This document shows, piece by piece, positions 48,660-54,826 of a DNA stretch of 64,000 bases. Under the pieces are notes generated by a model, which had not been told where the DNA came from, searched no databases, and saw nothing but the letters and a program-made list of their open reading frames with translations. The DNA comes from Ammoniphilus oxalaticus (lineage in GTDB: Bacteria; Bacillota; Bacilli; Aneurinibacillales; RAOX-1). The stretch lies in the NCBI RefSeq assembly GCF_003609605.1, contig NZ_MCHY01000009.1, positions 94,074 through 158,073 on the forward strand, read 5' to 3'. Made by a program: the position numbers and the translations under genes. How positions within the stretch are numbered: position 1 is the first letter of the stretch; every line of letters starts with the position of its first letter.

Positions 48660-49146
<487 letters not shown>

Positions 49147-49175
49147 ATTATATTAAAATAGCTAACGGAATGCAA
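49147..49175 (-). promoter_or_regulatory. Sigma-A promoter of the S10 superoperon
   Basis: Minus strand TTGCAT (49175-49170), exactly 17 bases, TATAAT (49152-49147). Strong match, about 180 bases before rpsJ. Confidence 0.8.
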
Positions 49176-49307
49176 GCTTTAATTTTAGAGCTTTGCAAAA
49201 TTCATTTTGCTGATTTTAATCGCATATGTTGAAGACCGATCTCGTTTTGTCGAATCAAAACTTTTATAATGTTATCGAATCTCAACTATTTTTGCAACCC
49301 CAAAAAT

Positions 49308-49334
49308 AAAAAAGCCTCCAGTTGGAAGGCTTTT
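49308..49334 (-). terminator. Terminator of selB
   Basis: Minus-strand AAGCCTTCC / GGAGGCTT with one bulged base, followed by TTTTTTA. Confidence 0.75.
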
Positions 49335-49347
49335 ACACATTCGTCTA

Positions 49348-51261
49348 CTATTCGACTACTTTTTCAGCCCGTTTGATCCATACCCGTTCATTGTCCACTC
49401 TTTTGGTCAATCCACGCTGGTCAAGCGATTCTAGAAAGGGGATTAGATATTTACGGGAAACAGATATAATTTCTCTTACTTGCGCCGGAGTAAAAGGGTT
49501 ATCGGCAGGTAGACCCTCTTTTAAACGCGTAACAGCTGATTCGTAAACAGACGCGTCAACGAGAAAATCAGAACCCATCGCCACATAACCTTTCTGCTCT
49601 ATAAGGTAAGCTTTTAACTCAGGTATATCTTGTTGCTTCAATCCCGCGCTTTTTGCTAAATCATCCCATGAAGAAACCGTTAACTCCTCCTTCTTCAATG
49701 TATTCTCTAATTTTTCAATCGTCGGTTGAATGGATGTTGGAATTTTCGGCTGATGTTTTTTGAGACTGATCGCCTCATCCGATTCGTCAACTACTGCCTC
49801 CTCCCTAAGGTTAACAACAAATTCCCTCCACAATCGATCAGCCAAGTCTGGAAAGTACCGACTACGTAGTTCTGATTTTTTCATGCCGGTCCGCATCGGA
49901 TGCTGATGATGATATTTCATTAAAGTCGTCTTTATTCGATCCACCCACTCTTGAACGGAGTCTGCTAGGACAACATAGGACCCAAACTGCTTCACGCGTT
50001 GTTCCTGCTCATATCGCTCAACCAACTGTTGCAAATAGGCCTGTCCTAAGGCAAGTTGGAAATCTATCTCTTCTATAGTAGAGAAGCCATCCTCAGCCAA
50101 TACGTACTGCAACATCTCCCATTCATCGCCATGGTTGAGTAACTCAAGCAACGCGACCGACTTTTCCCCAAACTTTCGTCTTTGCCCGTAGGGTGACAAC
50201 ACTTTTCCGCCGCCAAGCGTAGCCGTTGGTGAGAGACGACGAAGAATAAATGGATCTCCCGCCTTTGCGATAATTTCTCCTTCTAGCTGCAACTGGCAAA
50301 GCGCTTCTTCCCCTGGTTCCAGTTCATTTCGATCATAAAAAATAATCTTGCCCATGATTTCAGTTGTCGCGATATGTAGCCGAACCCTCATGCGCTGCTT
50401 TACTTTAAAGTCAAGATGCGGCAGCATGTGGAAGTGAATATCGATCCGATCGGTCTTTCGAAAATATTCAGGAGCGGTTAACGCGTAACCCCGTTCCATA
50501 TCCTTAAAGTCGATTCCACTCAAATTTAAAGCTGTCCGCTGACCAGCATAAGCTTTTTCAACGGAGTGGTGGTGGACATTCAGTTGACGAATTTTTACTT
50601 TTTCGCCAATCGGAAACACCTCTACTGTGTCGCCTTCTGTAATTTCTCCTTCATATATTGTACCCGTTACGACAGCGCCGGCTCCTTTTTTAGTGAATAC
50701 CCGATCAATTGGCATCCGAAACGGCTCTGACGTTTCCCGTTCAGGAATGGAGTGGAGTTCTGTTTCAATCGTTTCTAATAATTGTTCAATCCCAGTTCCT
50801 GTTTGCGAACTGACAGGGACAATCGGAGCGTCTTCCAAAAAGCTGTCTTCCACCCATTCCCGCGCTTCATCCTTTACCATCTCGATCCATTCTTCATCGA
50901 CCAAATCCGTCTTCGTTAGAGCGATGATCCCTTTTTCAATCCCGAGGAAGCGGATAATATCAAAATGCTCTCGCGTCTGAGGCATGATCCCTTCGTCAGC
51001 GGCAATGACCAAAATAACCAGATCGATCCCCGCCGCCCCCGCGATCATTTGCCTAATGAATCGTTCGTGACCTGGCACATCAACAACTCCGACCTGTTTA
51101 CCAGATGGCAGCTGTAACGGAGCGAAGCCAAGTTCAATCGAAACACCGCGTTCCCTTTCTTCTTTTAATCGATCCGTATCTATATTAGTTAATTTTTTTG
51201 TCAAAGACGTCTTTCCATGATCAATGTGCCCAGCGATCCCGATCGTATAATGCGTATCCAT
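49348..51261 (-). CDS. selB: Selenocysteine-specific elongation factor
   Basis: 637 residues. GTPase domain with AGHIDHGKTSLTKKL (G1), VDVPGHERFI (G3) and LTKTDLVDE (G4), two beta-barrel domains, and a C-terminal half of winged-helix domains that read the SECIS hairpin. It carries Sec-tRNA(Sec) to in-frame UGA codons. It lies head to head with tRNA-Sec, 302 bases apart. selA and selD are not in the window. Confidence 0.95.
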   Translation of the reverse strand: MDTHYTIGIAGHIDHGKTSLTKKLTNIDTDRLKEERERGVSIELGFAPLQLPSGKQVGVVDVPGHERFIRQMIAGAAGIDLVILVIAADEGIMPQTREHFDIIRFLGIEKGIIALTKTDLVDEEWIEMVKDEAREWVEDSFLEDAPIVPVSSQTGTGIEQLLETIETELHSIPERETSEPFRMPIDRVFTKKGAGAVVTGTIYEGEITEGDTVEVFPIGEKVKIRQLNVHHHSVEKAYAGQRTALNLSGIDFKDMERGYALTAPEYFRKTDRIDIHFHMLPHLDFKVKQRMRVRLHIATTEIMGKIIFYDRNELEPGEEALCQLQLEGEIIAKAGDPFILRRLSPTATLGGGKVLSPYGQRRKFGEKSVALLELLNHGDEWEMLQYVLAEDGFSTIEEIDFQLALGQAYLQQLVERYEQEQRVKQFGSYVVLADSVQEWVDRIKTTLMKYHHQHPMRTGMKKSELRSRYFPDLADRLWREFVVNLREEAVVDESDEAISLKKHQPKIPTSIQPTIEKLENTLKKEELTVSSWDDLAKSAGLKQQDIPELKAYLIEQKGYVAMGSDFLVDASVYESAVTRLKEGLPADNPFTPAQVREIISVSRKYLIPFLESLDQRGLTKRVDNERVWIKRAEKVVE

Positions 51262-51563
51262 AAGTCAGAAGTCCCTTCTTTCTATATAGTGTCTAAAGAG
51301 AAGATTGTATTCGTGTAAAGTTTACTTAAACGTAAAAAAGTTTCCACTTGGCGAAATGCGACTAATTTAACCTTTATTATAACGAAAAAAATTATCCAAT
51401 GCTCACATCTTCCCCTCGTGGAGTAATAAATCTCGCTTGGGATTGTTATTGAGAAGAGGTCTATTTCTCGAAGCGGGTTTTAATAAAATTTAGTTTGGAA
51501 GTAAATTACATTGATTTTTTATTCTTAATTTGTTACTTTAATAACGTAGCTTAATTGTTATAT
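51262..51563. other. Divergent spacer between selB and tRNA-Sec
   Basis: AT-rich, no gene. TTGATT (51511-51516) and TACTTT (51534-51539), 17 bases apart, could be the tRNA-Sec promoter. Nothing else is recognised. Confidence 0.35.
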
Positions 51564-51660
51564 GGGAGTTGATGAGGTCCTGGTGGTCTCCCCGGTCTTC
51601 AAAACCGAGTGAGGGGCACGTGTTGTCCCTGGTGGGTTCGATTCCCACCTTCTCCCGCCA
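51564..51660 (+). tRNA. selC: tRNA-Sec (anticodon UCA)
   Basis: 97 bases with encoded CCA. The anticodon loop CTTCAAA holds TCA, the variable arm is long (GAGGGGCACGTGTTGTCCCT), the D stem has 6 pairs and the T arm GTGGG-TTCGATT-CCCAC is perfect. The 8-base acceptor strands GGGAGTTG and CTTCTCCC face each other with two U-U mismatches in the middle, so the stem is not fully paired. Confidence 0.93.
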
Positions 51661-51673
51661 ACATACATAATTT

Positions 51674-51707
51674 AAGGGTTTAGCCTACAGGCTAAACCCT
51701 TTTTTTG
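51674..51707 (+). terminator. Terminator of tRNA-Sec
   Basis: Perfect 12-bp stem AAGGGTTTAGCC / GGCTAAACCCTT with a TACA loop and seven or more T. Confidence 0.9.
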
Positions 51708-51756
51708 TTTTTTATGCCATTAATTTGAGCCTGGTGGTCACAGCTATTTTACGTAT

Positions 51757-52950
51757 CTACAAAATCTTCCCCCTCAATTGAATGTTTGTCCCACGCGTGC
51801 CCGTATATGTGAATCGGAACGGACTGCCCAATTGTCCCTCCACCTCTGTCAATATTCTAGCTATGTAATCGTCGAGGTGGGAGATTTCTAATTCCTTCGT
51901 TTCATTTTTATATATCGTAAAATATTCAGCCATTTGAGTAGCAGGATCACCTTCTCCGCCAATTCCAGCGTACGCCCATTTAGCTAGCCGTTCATAGTAA
52001 TTAGGCAACTGTTCAGTAATATATTGCTGATAGATGGGAGCAATCATCGTCGGAGCCCCGACCCGTTCTAGTTCAAGTAACGCCGATTTTAACTCATCTT
52101 CCGCGATACCTAATACATCAATATATGTATCTGCTGAATATTGGTGAATCGCCACCCAATCACTGCTCGTTCTTTTGGAACTGATCGTAAACGTTTCGGC
52201 TGGCGCGCTGTCAAAAATCAGACGGACAAGGATATCAGTTTTCGGTTTACCGCCCCTTCTTTGACCCGCCTTTGGGGGAAGATCAGGAATTTCATCGGTT
52301 GCTTCAATGAAGGACAACTTTTCTTTCGCTTTAGCGCCATAGATCGAGATGATCTTTTTAAACCACGGGTAATTGAATCCAAGATCCTTATCCCCCTCTC
52401 CGTTCCAAATTTCAAGGTTAGCGGGATGCTCCAAGATATCAACTAGCAGCTTTTCAAACGCTTTTCCCTGTCTATCTTTGCGCGCTCCCACACCAAAGCG
52501 TTCAAATGCTTTTTCCTCAACTAAAAAATAAAGGTCCGCAAAGCTAATCACTCCGTCTAAAGCCGAGATAATCGCCTTATTTTCGATATCTTGGTGATAG
52601 CGAATACAACTTTTCACCTGGTCTTCTCTCGCTGCATCAGGATAGATTACATATGCCTTTTTAATGTTGGGATCGATCTGTTTAATATGAAACGCATTCC
52701 ACTGATACCCATTCATTCTCTCGCGCGGATACGTTGTTGTCGATTGAATCACCCACTGCTCCCCATCTTCAAATGTAATTAAAAAAGGGAAATAAAACTG
52801 AGGGTTCTTATCGGTGTAGCCAAATCGTTGTTGCTTTGGAAAGAAAGAATAGTGAATGATGTAGCCCCGTTGCTTGAGCTTATCAAGTAGAGACTGAATT
52901 AATTGTTGGTGTTTCGACCCACGGAAGTTTCTTGAAAACTGATCGGTCAT
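51757..52950 (-). CDS. MspI-family type II restriction endonuclease with an extra N-terminal domain
   Basis: 397 residues. From about residue 150 it follows the MspI pattern from memory of that enzyme: DRQGKAFEKLLVDIL, RGGKPKTDILVRLIF, VLGIAEDELK and a C-terminal RFTYTGTRGTNIQLRGK. The MspI active site is D99/N117/K119; here D239, S257 and K259 sit at the same spacing (18 and 20), with Ser in place of Asn. The first 150 residues (EDGEQWVIQSTTTYPRERMN, then AYVIYPD) are absent from MspI. ATG 52950 has AAGGGGAAG upstream; an earlier frame to 53028 lacks one. No DNA methylase gene is in the window. Confidence 0.8.
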   Translation of the reverse strand: MTDQFSRNFRGSKHQQLIQSLLDKLKQRGYIIHYSFFPKQQRFGYTDKNPQFYFPFLITFEDGEQWVIQSTTTYPRERMNGYQWNAFHIKQIDPNIKKAYVIYPDAAREDQVKSCIRYHQDIENKAIISALDGVISFADLYFLVEEKAFERFGVGARKDRQGKAFEKLLVDILEHPANLEIWNGEGDKDLGFNYPWFKKIISIYGAKAKEKLSFIEATDEIPDLPPKAGQRRGGKPKTDILVRLIFDSAPAETFTISSKRTSSDWVAIHQYSADTYIDVLGIAEDELKSALLELERVGAPTMIAPIYQQYITEQLPNYYERLAKWAYAGIGGEGDPATQMAEYFTIYKNETKELEISHLDDYIARILTEVEGQLGSPFRFTYTGTRGTNIQLRGKIL

Positions 52951-53163
52951 GTTCTTCTTCCCCTTTATACTATTTAAAAGATCTAAAATCATCGGTTCAA
53001 ACCCAATACCCAGGCGCATATCAATCAAAACGGCTTGGAAGGTGGGTACTTAGCGCCACGAGTAGTCGCGCGATATCTATCCAACGGGTTATTGCGGATG
53101 ATTATTATTTGCGATAATATATTTTAAAAATTACGAATATCAGCAAAAGATAAGGAGATCACG

Positions 53164-53817
53164 ATGCAAACAAAATTACTACGCGTCTTATTAATCGGAC
53201 TATGTCTATTGTTAGCAGCATGTGGAAAAACACCAGTAAACAGCTCAAACGAAAATCAGGAACATGAAGAGGCGGAAACCGATATAGATACGGTTACCAA
53301 TGACGAAGTAGAAACGCTTACCTCGGAATCAAATCGAGAGAAAGAAGAAGATCCTGATCAAATGATTCCTAAAGAGAATTTATTAGGCTCGCCCAAAAAA
53401 ATAAATCATCCGCAAAAGGACATCGAAATAACCTATACGGATGCCTTTTTCACCATGCAATTAAAGCCTACTGGGCGTAATTCGAAAGATGCGATGAACA
53501 TCCTTGCCACAGACAAAGAAATTTACTTCCACGTCATCGCTAAGATTTACAATGACACAACAGATGCATTCCATTTTAGTAGACTTGAAGGCGATGGAAA
53601 AGTCATATTGATTTATGATAATAAACATGAATTTGAATTTATTGCGGCGGCGGAAAGCAGCGATGGATCCACATTTGGGTCCTCAAGAGCCGAACCTTTG
53701 ACAGAAACAATCGCTCATTTCTACGCCAAAGTACCTATTGCTGTCTATCAATCAAAGGGCCCCCTGGAATTAAAGATCAATGTCGGTGATGAAGAATATA
53801 ACATTGAACTACGCTAA
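53164..53817 (+). CDS. Lipoprotein, DUF4352-like
   Basis: 217 residues. Signal peptide with lipobox LAAC, an acidic linker (about 22-75) and a C-terminal immunoglobulin-like beta domain resembling DUF4352 proteins. Anchored on the outer face of the membrane; function unknown. ATG behind AAGGAG. Divergent from the endonuclease gene. Confidence 0.7.
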   Translation: MQTKLLRVLLIGLCLLLAACGKTPVNSSNENQEHEEAETDIDTVTNDEVETLTSESNREKEEDPDQMIPKENLLGSPKKINHPQKDIEITYTDAFFTMQLKPTGRNSKDAMNILATDKEIYFHVIAKIYNDTTDAFHFSRLEGDGKVILIYDNKHEFEFIAAAESSDGSTFGSSRAEPLTETIAHFYAKVPIAVYQSKGPLELKINVGDEEYNIELR

Positions 53818-53836
53818 CCTGTATTCCAAAAACAAC

Positions 53837-53871
53837 TCAACCGCCCCCACTATAATATGAGGGGCGGTTGA
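53837..53871. terminator. Bidirectional hairpin terminator
   Basis: 11-bp GC-rich stem TCAACCGCCCC / GGGGCGGTTGA between convergent genes. U-runs are short. Confidence 0.65.
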
Positions 53872-53878
53872 ACCACTT

Positions 53879-54826
53879 TTAAACACTCGATCGGGTCAAC
53901 TCGTCGATTGCTTGTTGTAAAGATTCTGCATCAAATATATTCATCGTTTTACGCGTTCGATCGATTTTCCTCATCAGACCAGTCAACACTGTCCCGGAAC
54001 CAAACTCAATAAACGTCTCTACACCTTGTCCAATCATAAATTGGATGCTTCTTTCCCACTGCACGGAAGAATACACTTGAGAAATAAGCGCTTTTTCTAG
54101 TTCTTTGGCATTGCTTTTGGGCTCGCCATCAATGTTCGTAACAACTGGAACTAAGGCATCGGAGAAAGTGATCGGGTCCAGCACAGTTTGTAGTCTTTCA
54201 GATGCGGGAACCATAAGTTGAGAATGGAACGGCCCACTAACCGCCAGTGGAAGAACCCGCTTCACACCATTTTCCTTTAAAAGAATAGAAACCCGCTCTA
54301 CACCTTCCTTCACCCCAGAAATAACAATTTGACCAGGGCAATTAATATTGGCAATTTGCGCCGAAAGTCCCTCTTTTTGAACCTTCTCACATGTCTCTCG
54401 AATGAGTTCGGTATCAGCTCCTAAGACTGCTGCCATCGAACCTTGTCCAACTGGAACAGCGTCGTTCATCAATTCGCCTCTCTGCCGCACCGCATATACT
54501 GCATCTTCAAACGATAAAACCCCTGCGGCAACGAGCGCTGAATACTCTCCTAAACTATGCCCAGCAACAAAATCAGGTTTCGGTAATTTACCTTTTCCAG
54601 CTTCTAACAAAGCGATGCTCGTCGTTACCAAGGCTGGTTGTGTATGGTAAGTTACCTTTAATTCTTCTTCTGGGCCAAAGAAACACAGCTTTTGCAGGTC
54701 ATAACCTAGAGCCTCATTCGCCTTTTCAAATATAGCTTTAGCTTTTGGGTTTTGTTCGGCAATGTCTTTGCCCATTCCAACCGCTTGGGAGCCTTGTCCC
54801 GGAAATAGAAAAGCAATTTTACTCAT
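53879..54826 (-). CDS. fabD: Malonyl-CoA:ACP transacylase
   Basis: 315 residues. LFPGQGSQAVGMG start, nucleophile Ser in VAGHSLGEYSALVAAG, the His in AVSGPFHSQLM, all FabD hallmarks. Loads malonate on ACP for fatty acid synthesis. It stands alone: fabH, plsX, fabG and acpP, its usual neighbours, are not beside it. It may be a second copy. Confidence 0.93.
   Translation of the reverse strand: MSKIAFLFPGQGSQAVGMGKDIAEQNPKAKAIFEKANEALGYDLQKLCFFGPEEELKVTYHTQPALVTTSIALLEAGKGKLPKPDFVAGHSLGEYSALVAAGVLSFEDAVYAVRQRGELMNDAVPVGQGSMAAVLGADTELIRETCEKVQKEGLSAQIANINCPGQIVISGVKEGVERVSILLKENGVKRVLPLAVSGPFHSQLMVPASERLQTVLDPITFSDALVPVVTNIDGEPKSNAKELEKALISQVYSSVQWERSIQFMIGQGVETFIEFGSGTVLTGLMRKIDRTRKTMNIFDAESLQQAIDELTRSSV

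Follow-up and report, generated by a model that had tools for sequence, protein, structure and literature searches.

The gene at 51757-52950 of the window, the stretch of 64,000 nucleotides that was analysed, very probably encodes a BsuFI-like Type II restriction endonuclease with a distant C5 methylase as partner and a predicted dead-nuclease domain at its N terminus. From the family of the enzyme, its intact active-site residues, the pairing of restriction (R) and modification (M) genes in relatives, an intact matching methylase and the depletion of CCGG in the host, all of which were computed, we infer that its C-terminal MspI domain would cut unmodified DNA at CCGG or a CCGG-core site. Host DNA would be protected by the 5-methylcytosine methyltransferase encoded at G000:C6:414064-415440 (host genome G000, contig C6), which is a neighbour in relatives and distant here. 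The N-terminal domain would be another restriction-nuclease fold, one in which the catalytic Asp and Lys have disappeared while an R-(D/E)R motif was kept, and most likely acts as an extra CCGG-binding domain, either for gripping the site or as a sensor of a second site.

Table 1. Features of the endonuclease gene and its tRNA-side neighbourhood (positions in the window)
Feature	Position	Strand	Basis or remark
MspI/BsuFI-type restriction endonuclease gene, 397 aa	51757..52950	(-)	ORF, Pfam, PADLOC, PDB matches
N-terminal domain, residues 1-152, predicted PD-(D/E)XK fold without catalytic Asp/Lys	52495..52950	(-)	AlphaFold2, VIA-align, alignments
R76-E77-R78, start of helix 76-92, place of the putative CCGG-reading R-(D/E)R	52717..52725	(-)	models, alignments
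MspI-like catalytic domain, residues 144-394	51769..52521	(-)	PF09208, PDB 1sa3, Foldseek, VIA
Active-site D239 codon (MspI D99)	52234..52236	(-)	alignment
S257-S258-K259 codons (MspI N117-x-K119)	52174..52182	(-)	alignment
tRNA-Sec gene	51564..51660	(+)	neighbour, outside the R-M system
Terminator-like stem-loop	51674..51701	.	between tRNA-Sec and endonuclease gene

ORF analysis gave an intact frame of 397 codons beginning with an ATG at 52950; a GGGG run ends 9 nt ahead of this ATG, and an alternative TTG start 78 bases upstream is in open frame too. The C-terminal part of the protein proved to be MspI-like, as originally predicted. Residues 144-394 matched Pfam PF09208 (Endonuc-MspI) with an E-value of 6.8e-53 (180.3 bits against a curated cut-off of 25.6, with profile positions 5-259 of 259 covered), residues 155-392 matched the sequence of MspI in PDB 1sa3 (E 2.3e-14), and the predicted fold of the catalytic domain matched MspI in Foldseek (E 2.9e-15). 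With VIA-align, the predicted model gave Z 19.8 against MspI 1sa3 (rmsd 3.7 over 249) and Z 18.7 against 2fkc (rmsd 3.2 over 212), placing it in the MspI/HinP1I fold. An NCBIfam search of the protein assigned no family. The PADLOC profile PDLC03449 (399 positions) matched residues 7-394, covering both domains, and the architecture is thus already in a defence-system library. The N-terminal extension of about 150 residues is indeed absent from MspI, as had been claimed, but is not peculiar to this gene, being shared by PDLC03449 and by the 12 homologues described below.

The spacing of D239, S257 and K259 was confirmed by alignment with the MspI active site, which we take to be numbered D99, N117 and K119. 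The D and K of the MspI-family D...N-x-K site are present and the N is replaced by S. This Ser257 is invariant in 13/13 members of the subfamily (the host protein, 11 aligned homologues and a protein from Priestia), while E166, D239, S257 and K259 are unchanged in all 12 aligned sequences (the host and 11 full-length homologues). In the Priestia protein the active-site D, S and K are likewise present, with a Cys at position 258. The host protein itself differs from the subfamily at T73, P75, E77 and S258, at otherwise conserved positions. PMC7559349 compares MspI N117 with Ser in relatives and gives BsuFI a Ser (S254) at this place. Judged from these sequences, Ser257 is a rule of the subfamily and not a defect.

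The endonuclease was found to be rare. Of 398 genomes in the class, the host alone had a PF09208 match; within the same family the endonuclease was found only in the host (1/4), and phage records gave no match to it. Besides the host, 12 full-length homologues were recovered, comprising 10 genome loci, one viral contig and one plasmid, the last being the only full-length homologue in 72,556 plasmid records (Priestia). The scans used two short peptide patterns each, both of them from the N-terminal domain in the genome scan, and because of this choice of patterns the list of 12 is partial and biased to proteins that carry that domain. Three Acinetobacter plasmid matches were of the short MspI type, as seen at the two of the three loci that were inspected. 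Each of the 12 full-length homologues has a C5 methyltransferase no more than about 440 bp away, always from a single clade (the gap is about 280-440 bp at four of the loci), and these methylases are 47-59% identical to the one on contig C6 of the host. Endonuclease and methylase identities over the 13 pairs were correlated, with r of 0.84 (78 pairs) and 0.94 for the host row, although relatedness alone may yield much of this correlation. Separation of the two genes was seen in none of the 12 relatives; the usual adjacency is missing in the host, where the genes are on different contigs, and the host arrangement is unusual.

Several further genes were seen at these loci. In a Tyzzerella MAG, a second, divergent MspI-like gene (L026:7177-8415, 27%) follows the R-M pair and has lost the R-(D/E)R, and it is followed by an open frame (L026:8424-8882) that resembles a Vsr mismatch endonuclease by eye. 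An annotated vsr is also near the Priestia locus. In the host, a Vsr gene is found at G000:C6:575783, apart from both the endonuclease and the methylase genes.

The statement in the original prediction that no methylase is present in the window was borne out for the C5 (PF00145) and N4/N6 (PF01555) families, whose whole-genome matches were all on other contigs; the PF01555 search gave four, none of them on the contig of the window. One N4/N6 match (G000:C6:326078-326996) is split over two adjacent open frames and is possibly a frameshifted gene or a piece of another R-M system. A whole-genome search for a CCGG-type methylase had been set as a test, and it found a gene of the partner clade on contig C6. 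The profile search returned two PF00145 genes, one of this clade (459 aa) and one HhaI-like. The former shares 59% identity with the methylase next to the Priestia homologue, the closest plasmid homologue, and is intact, with 148 residues invariant among the 13 sequences, including PC117-118, ENV155-157 and Q212-R214-R216. Its second-best plasmid match, after Priestia, is the methylase of the BsaWI locus (37%), where the endonuclease protein is identical to PDB 4zsf; BsaWI recognises W/CCGGW, according to PMC4652773. By analogy, the C6 methylase would be specific for a CCGG-core site, and on the sequence evidence it is likely to be the functional partner of the endonuclease. No endonuclease of the BsaWI-type or HpaII-type families was found in the host genome at E 0.001.

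The HhaI-like C5 methyltransferase (L002:1462-2520, on G000:C6; E 3.6e-114 to M.HhaI) was considered as an alternative partner and rejected, its expected site, presumably GCGC, not being depleted in the host (0.95). The open frames in the 3.9-kb locus around it include no obvious endonuclease. Because GCGC is not depleted, it may be an orphan methylase.

It is quite improbable that the endonuclease and the C6 methylase were acquired separately, with the methylase serving some other purpose. On a single replicon, no less than 315 kb would separate the two genes (the closer contig end is 146 kb away for the endonuclease, on C9, and 170 kb away for the methylase, on C6), and inspection by eye showed other genes on both sides of the methylase and no endonuclease-like open frame adjoining it, as separate acquisition would have it. 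However, both come from clades that co-occur at 12/12 loci, and both are rare: to the single PF09208 genome in the class can be added that the best match to the methylase among 60 relatives was only 37%, over residues 87-445.

Next, tetranucleotide counts in the host were compared with those expected from a second-order Markov model. The host sample of 479 kb was non-random: it combined 19 stretches, each 20 kb long, with two loci and the window, and drew on three contigs. CCGG was the lowest of the 16 four-base palindromes, with 545 observed against 1291 expected (ratio 0.42, z -20.8), and the observed/expected ratio was 0.28-0.53 in all 19 of the 20-kb stretches. The ratios were 0.90, 0.86 and 0.86 in three genomes of the same family (the 45 kb flanking selB in three relatives, which had served as an earlier control and are contained in this larger one, gave 1.06), and 20 other genomes of the class, at 20 kb each, had a median of 0.94 and a minimum of 0.43, the two low genomes being at 0.43 (13 of 30) and 0.56 (4 of 7). 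Depletion was mixed in genomes with the paired system: in eight of nine listed genomes, a sample without L029, L032 and G398, the ratios were 0.87, 0.60, 0.92, 0.61, 0.80, 1.15, 0.32 and 0.79. Three of them thus show the depletion clearly, and the other five show it weakly or not at all. The 21-kb Priestia plasmid stretch had 4 CCGG against 9 expected. Within the NCCGGN set in the host, CCCGGG was lowest at 0.51 and most others were near 1.

Deamination does not look like the cause of the CCGG depletion, since TCGG and CTGG were not singled out (1.01 and 0.89 in the host, 0.88-0.90 and 0.84-0.86 in the relatives), although this is a hint only, as the expectations are not independent of one another. 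For comparison, GCGG was 1.32 in the host against 1.16-1.19 in the relatives, and ACGG 1.13 against 1.09-1.14.

The depletion in the host is what present or past cutting of unmodified CCGG would lead one to expect, and it could also have been left by a previous or a different CCGG system. The original prediction had held that a cognate methylase elsewhere in the genome, together with cleavage of unmodified CCGG-type sites, would make this an ordinary split restriction system; a likely cognate methylase was found, which answers the genomic half of this. Three ways had been offered in which the host could tolerate such an enzyme without a neighbouring methylase, namely specificity for modified DNA, lack of activity or a methylase at a remote site, and the last of these fits.

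The modification-dependent nuclease that had been put forward, a Type IIM or IV-like defence enzyme that cuts only DNA with modified cytosine and needs no methylase of its own, agrees with a window free of PF00145 and PF01555 methylases, but we regard it as very unlikely. The same genome has a methylase of the clade found beside 12/12 homologues, and CCGG is depleted. The Ser that distinguishes the enzyme from MspI occurs in 13/13 members and also, as reported in PMC7559349, in BsuFI. Furthermore, the model of the N-terminal domain resembles restriction nucleases, and no modified-base reader domain was matched in the host protein at E 1 in Pfam.

An inactive relic, in which the endonuclease was parted from its partner and then lost activity, is also unlikely. 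The departures at T73, P75, E77 and S258 would be in keeping with such decay, whereas the full-length open frame with its catalytic residues, the methylase with its 148 invariant residues and the depletion of CCGG in 19/19 sampled stretches argue against it. On this evidence a working CCGG Type II system with separated R and M genes is the most likely arrangement.

The position of the gene next to tRNA-Sec had been taken as a sign of foreign DNA. The distance given, 97 bases after the tRNA gene, holds, with 96 bases lying between tRNA-Sec and the last base of the endonuclease gene. Arrival at this site was not borne out, as no direct repeat of the tRNA-Sec end was found in 51400-53900 and the G+C content of the endonuclease gene is ordinary (0.430 against 0.437 in the host sample). 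Comparison of the selC region placed tRNA-Sec less than 2.5 kb from selB, with other genes beyond, in two same-family genomes out of three; the remaining one has a contig that stops at selB. At 48660-51660 of the window, selB and tRNA-Sec are beside an apparent rpsJ and ribosomal-protein operon (names assigned by eye), and the selB, tRNA-Sec and rpsJ-side gene order also occurs in the same-family genome L051.

The N-terminal domain was modelled with AlphaFold2 both within the whole protein (pLDDT 85, pTM 0.81) and as residues 1-152 alone (pLDDT 82, pTM 0.78). VIA-align of the domain model gave Z 9.4 for NgoMIV (rmsd 3.8 over 136), 9.3 for PspGI (3.3 over 133), 9.0 for SgrAI (3.5 over 141) and BsaWI (3.8 over 136), 8.8 for Bse634I (3.5 over 139), 8.6 for Cfr10I (3.6 over 140), 8.2 for AgeI (3.4 over 137) and 7.6 for PfoI (3.9 over 143), so that the predicted model falls within the PD-(D/E)XK restriction fold. 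Because many PD-(D/E)XK proteins of other types, such as Can2, VC1899 and Bax1, tie with the restriction enzymes among the best 50 VIA matches, the predicted fold by itself does not point to the CCGG family in particular. Foldseek gave no match for the domain at E <= 0.001; SduA was best at 0.019, followed by VC1899 and a CRISPR ancillary nuclease.

Pfam searches with the N-terminal domains of 12 members gave five matches to RE_BsaWI (best E 0.0056) and five to ERCC4 (best 0.0011), all below cut-off, while the host's own domain had no Pfam match, and a PDB sequence search with the domain profile returned nothing up to E 5. An hhalign comparison of the profile with BsaWI covered a strand and the recognition helix, with a probability of only 20.8 and an E-value, for a single comparison, of 0.0011, and none of 300 shuffled BsaWI controls reached the real score (best 24.1 against 28.6); other controls were reversed BsaWI at 15.2, MspI at 15.7 and M.MspI at 21.2. 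Without realignment, the alignment is 12 columns only, covering the IQSxTSIRDR stretch. According to PMC4652773, the active site of BsaWI is putatively formed by E92, D145, K165 and D175, and its CCGG-reading motif is R169-D170-R171. BsaWI D145 is aligned with P55 of the host (Q in the other 12), after realignment only and outside the 12-column core, and K165 with T71, a T in 13/13, so that the catalytic Asp and Lys of the CCGG-family nucleases are missing at the aligned places in all 13 members. In contrast, R169-D170-R171 is aligned with an R-(x)-(D/E)-R that is present in 13/13. The helix begins at residue 76 in both AlphaFold2 models, and PMC6344858 describes R-(D/E)R as opening a helix that reaches into the major groove.

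On these models the N-terminal domain is probably a dead restriction nuclease, and the predicted fold, the weak profile matches and the position of the motif suggest that it may still read CCGG. The literature searched contained no description of this domain; an earlier description is possible. A stand-alone relative of 181 aa (L152:4989-5534, 27%, with R-x-D-R, annotated as hypothetical) was seen on an Aneurinibacillus plasmid, divergent from an adjoining annotated site-specific DNA methyltransferase. Since this relative sits beside a methyltransferase on a plasmid, it suggests that the domain is a mobile module. Phage records gave no match to the N-terminal domain of the L026 homologue.

The chain may hold two unrelated CCGG readers, namely a dead BsaWI/NgoMIV-type nuclease domain, whose R-(D/E)R would still recognise CCGG, and, fused to it, a live MspI-type nuclease; together with an M.BsaWI-like partner this would suggest a BsaWI-like system with a retired nuclease. 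We hold this view tentatively, at somewhat short of even chances. The BsaWI-like nuclease would then have been retired to DNA reading or second-site sensing, in the manner of Type IIE enzymes, when the MspI domain took over catalysis.

The analysis removes a false lead, as the enzyme is probably not methylase-free. A Type II pair is apparently able to persist with its R and M genes far apart, and therefore a missing neighbour methylase says little in favour of a modification-dependent nuclease. Should the proposed reading of the N-terminal domain be true, it would clearly exemplify the reuse of a restriction nuclease domain as a module for reading DNA, placed next to another type of nuclease with the same specificity.

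Among known systems, BsuFI of Bacillus subtilis cuts CCGG, is 395 aa long and has an M.MspI-like methylase, which is of another clade than that of the host. BsuFI is similar to the host enzyme in length and offset, the numbering alone suggesting a shared N-terminal domain, and has its Ser at the MspI N117 place (S254 compared with S257), as reported in PMC7559349. The same source describes R.Gva14018I (Gardnerella), with a predicted MspI-like D47/S65/K67 site that also has Ser for Asn, and a HHpred likeness to MspI reported for residues 38-104 only. MspI itself (1sa3) shares the catalytic domain and the D, (N/S), K spacing; unlike the host enzyme it lacks the N-terminal domain and has Asn where the host has Ser, and its partner methylase differs in kind, matching the C6 methylase at 27% over 127 residues. 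The BsaWI system (Parageobacillus toebii NEB718; 4zsf) is similar in its methylase (37%) and, on the side of the N-terminal domain, in fold (Z 9.0) and in the IQSxTSIRDR-like stretch, but BsaWI is a single, active nuclease, and its D145 and K165 are aligned with P/Q and T in the domain. The pair on the Priestia megaterium plasmid NZ_CP018877 is similar to that of the host in both its full-length endonuclease (40%) and its methylase (59%), but there the R and M genes are convergent and 58 bp apart. Compared with these systems, the N-terminal domain is what may be new here, and together with the separation of the two genes it makes the host system a variant.
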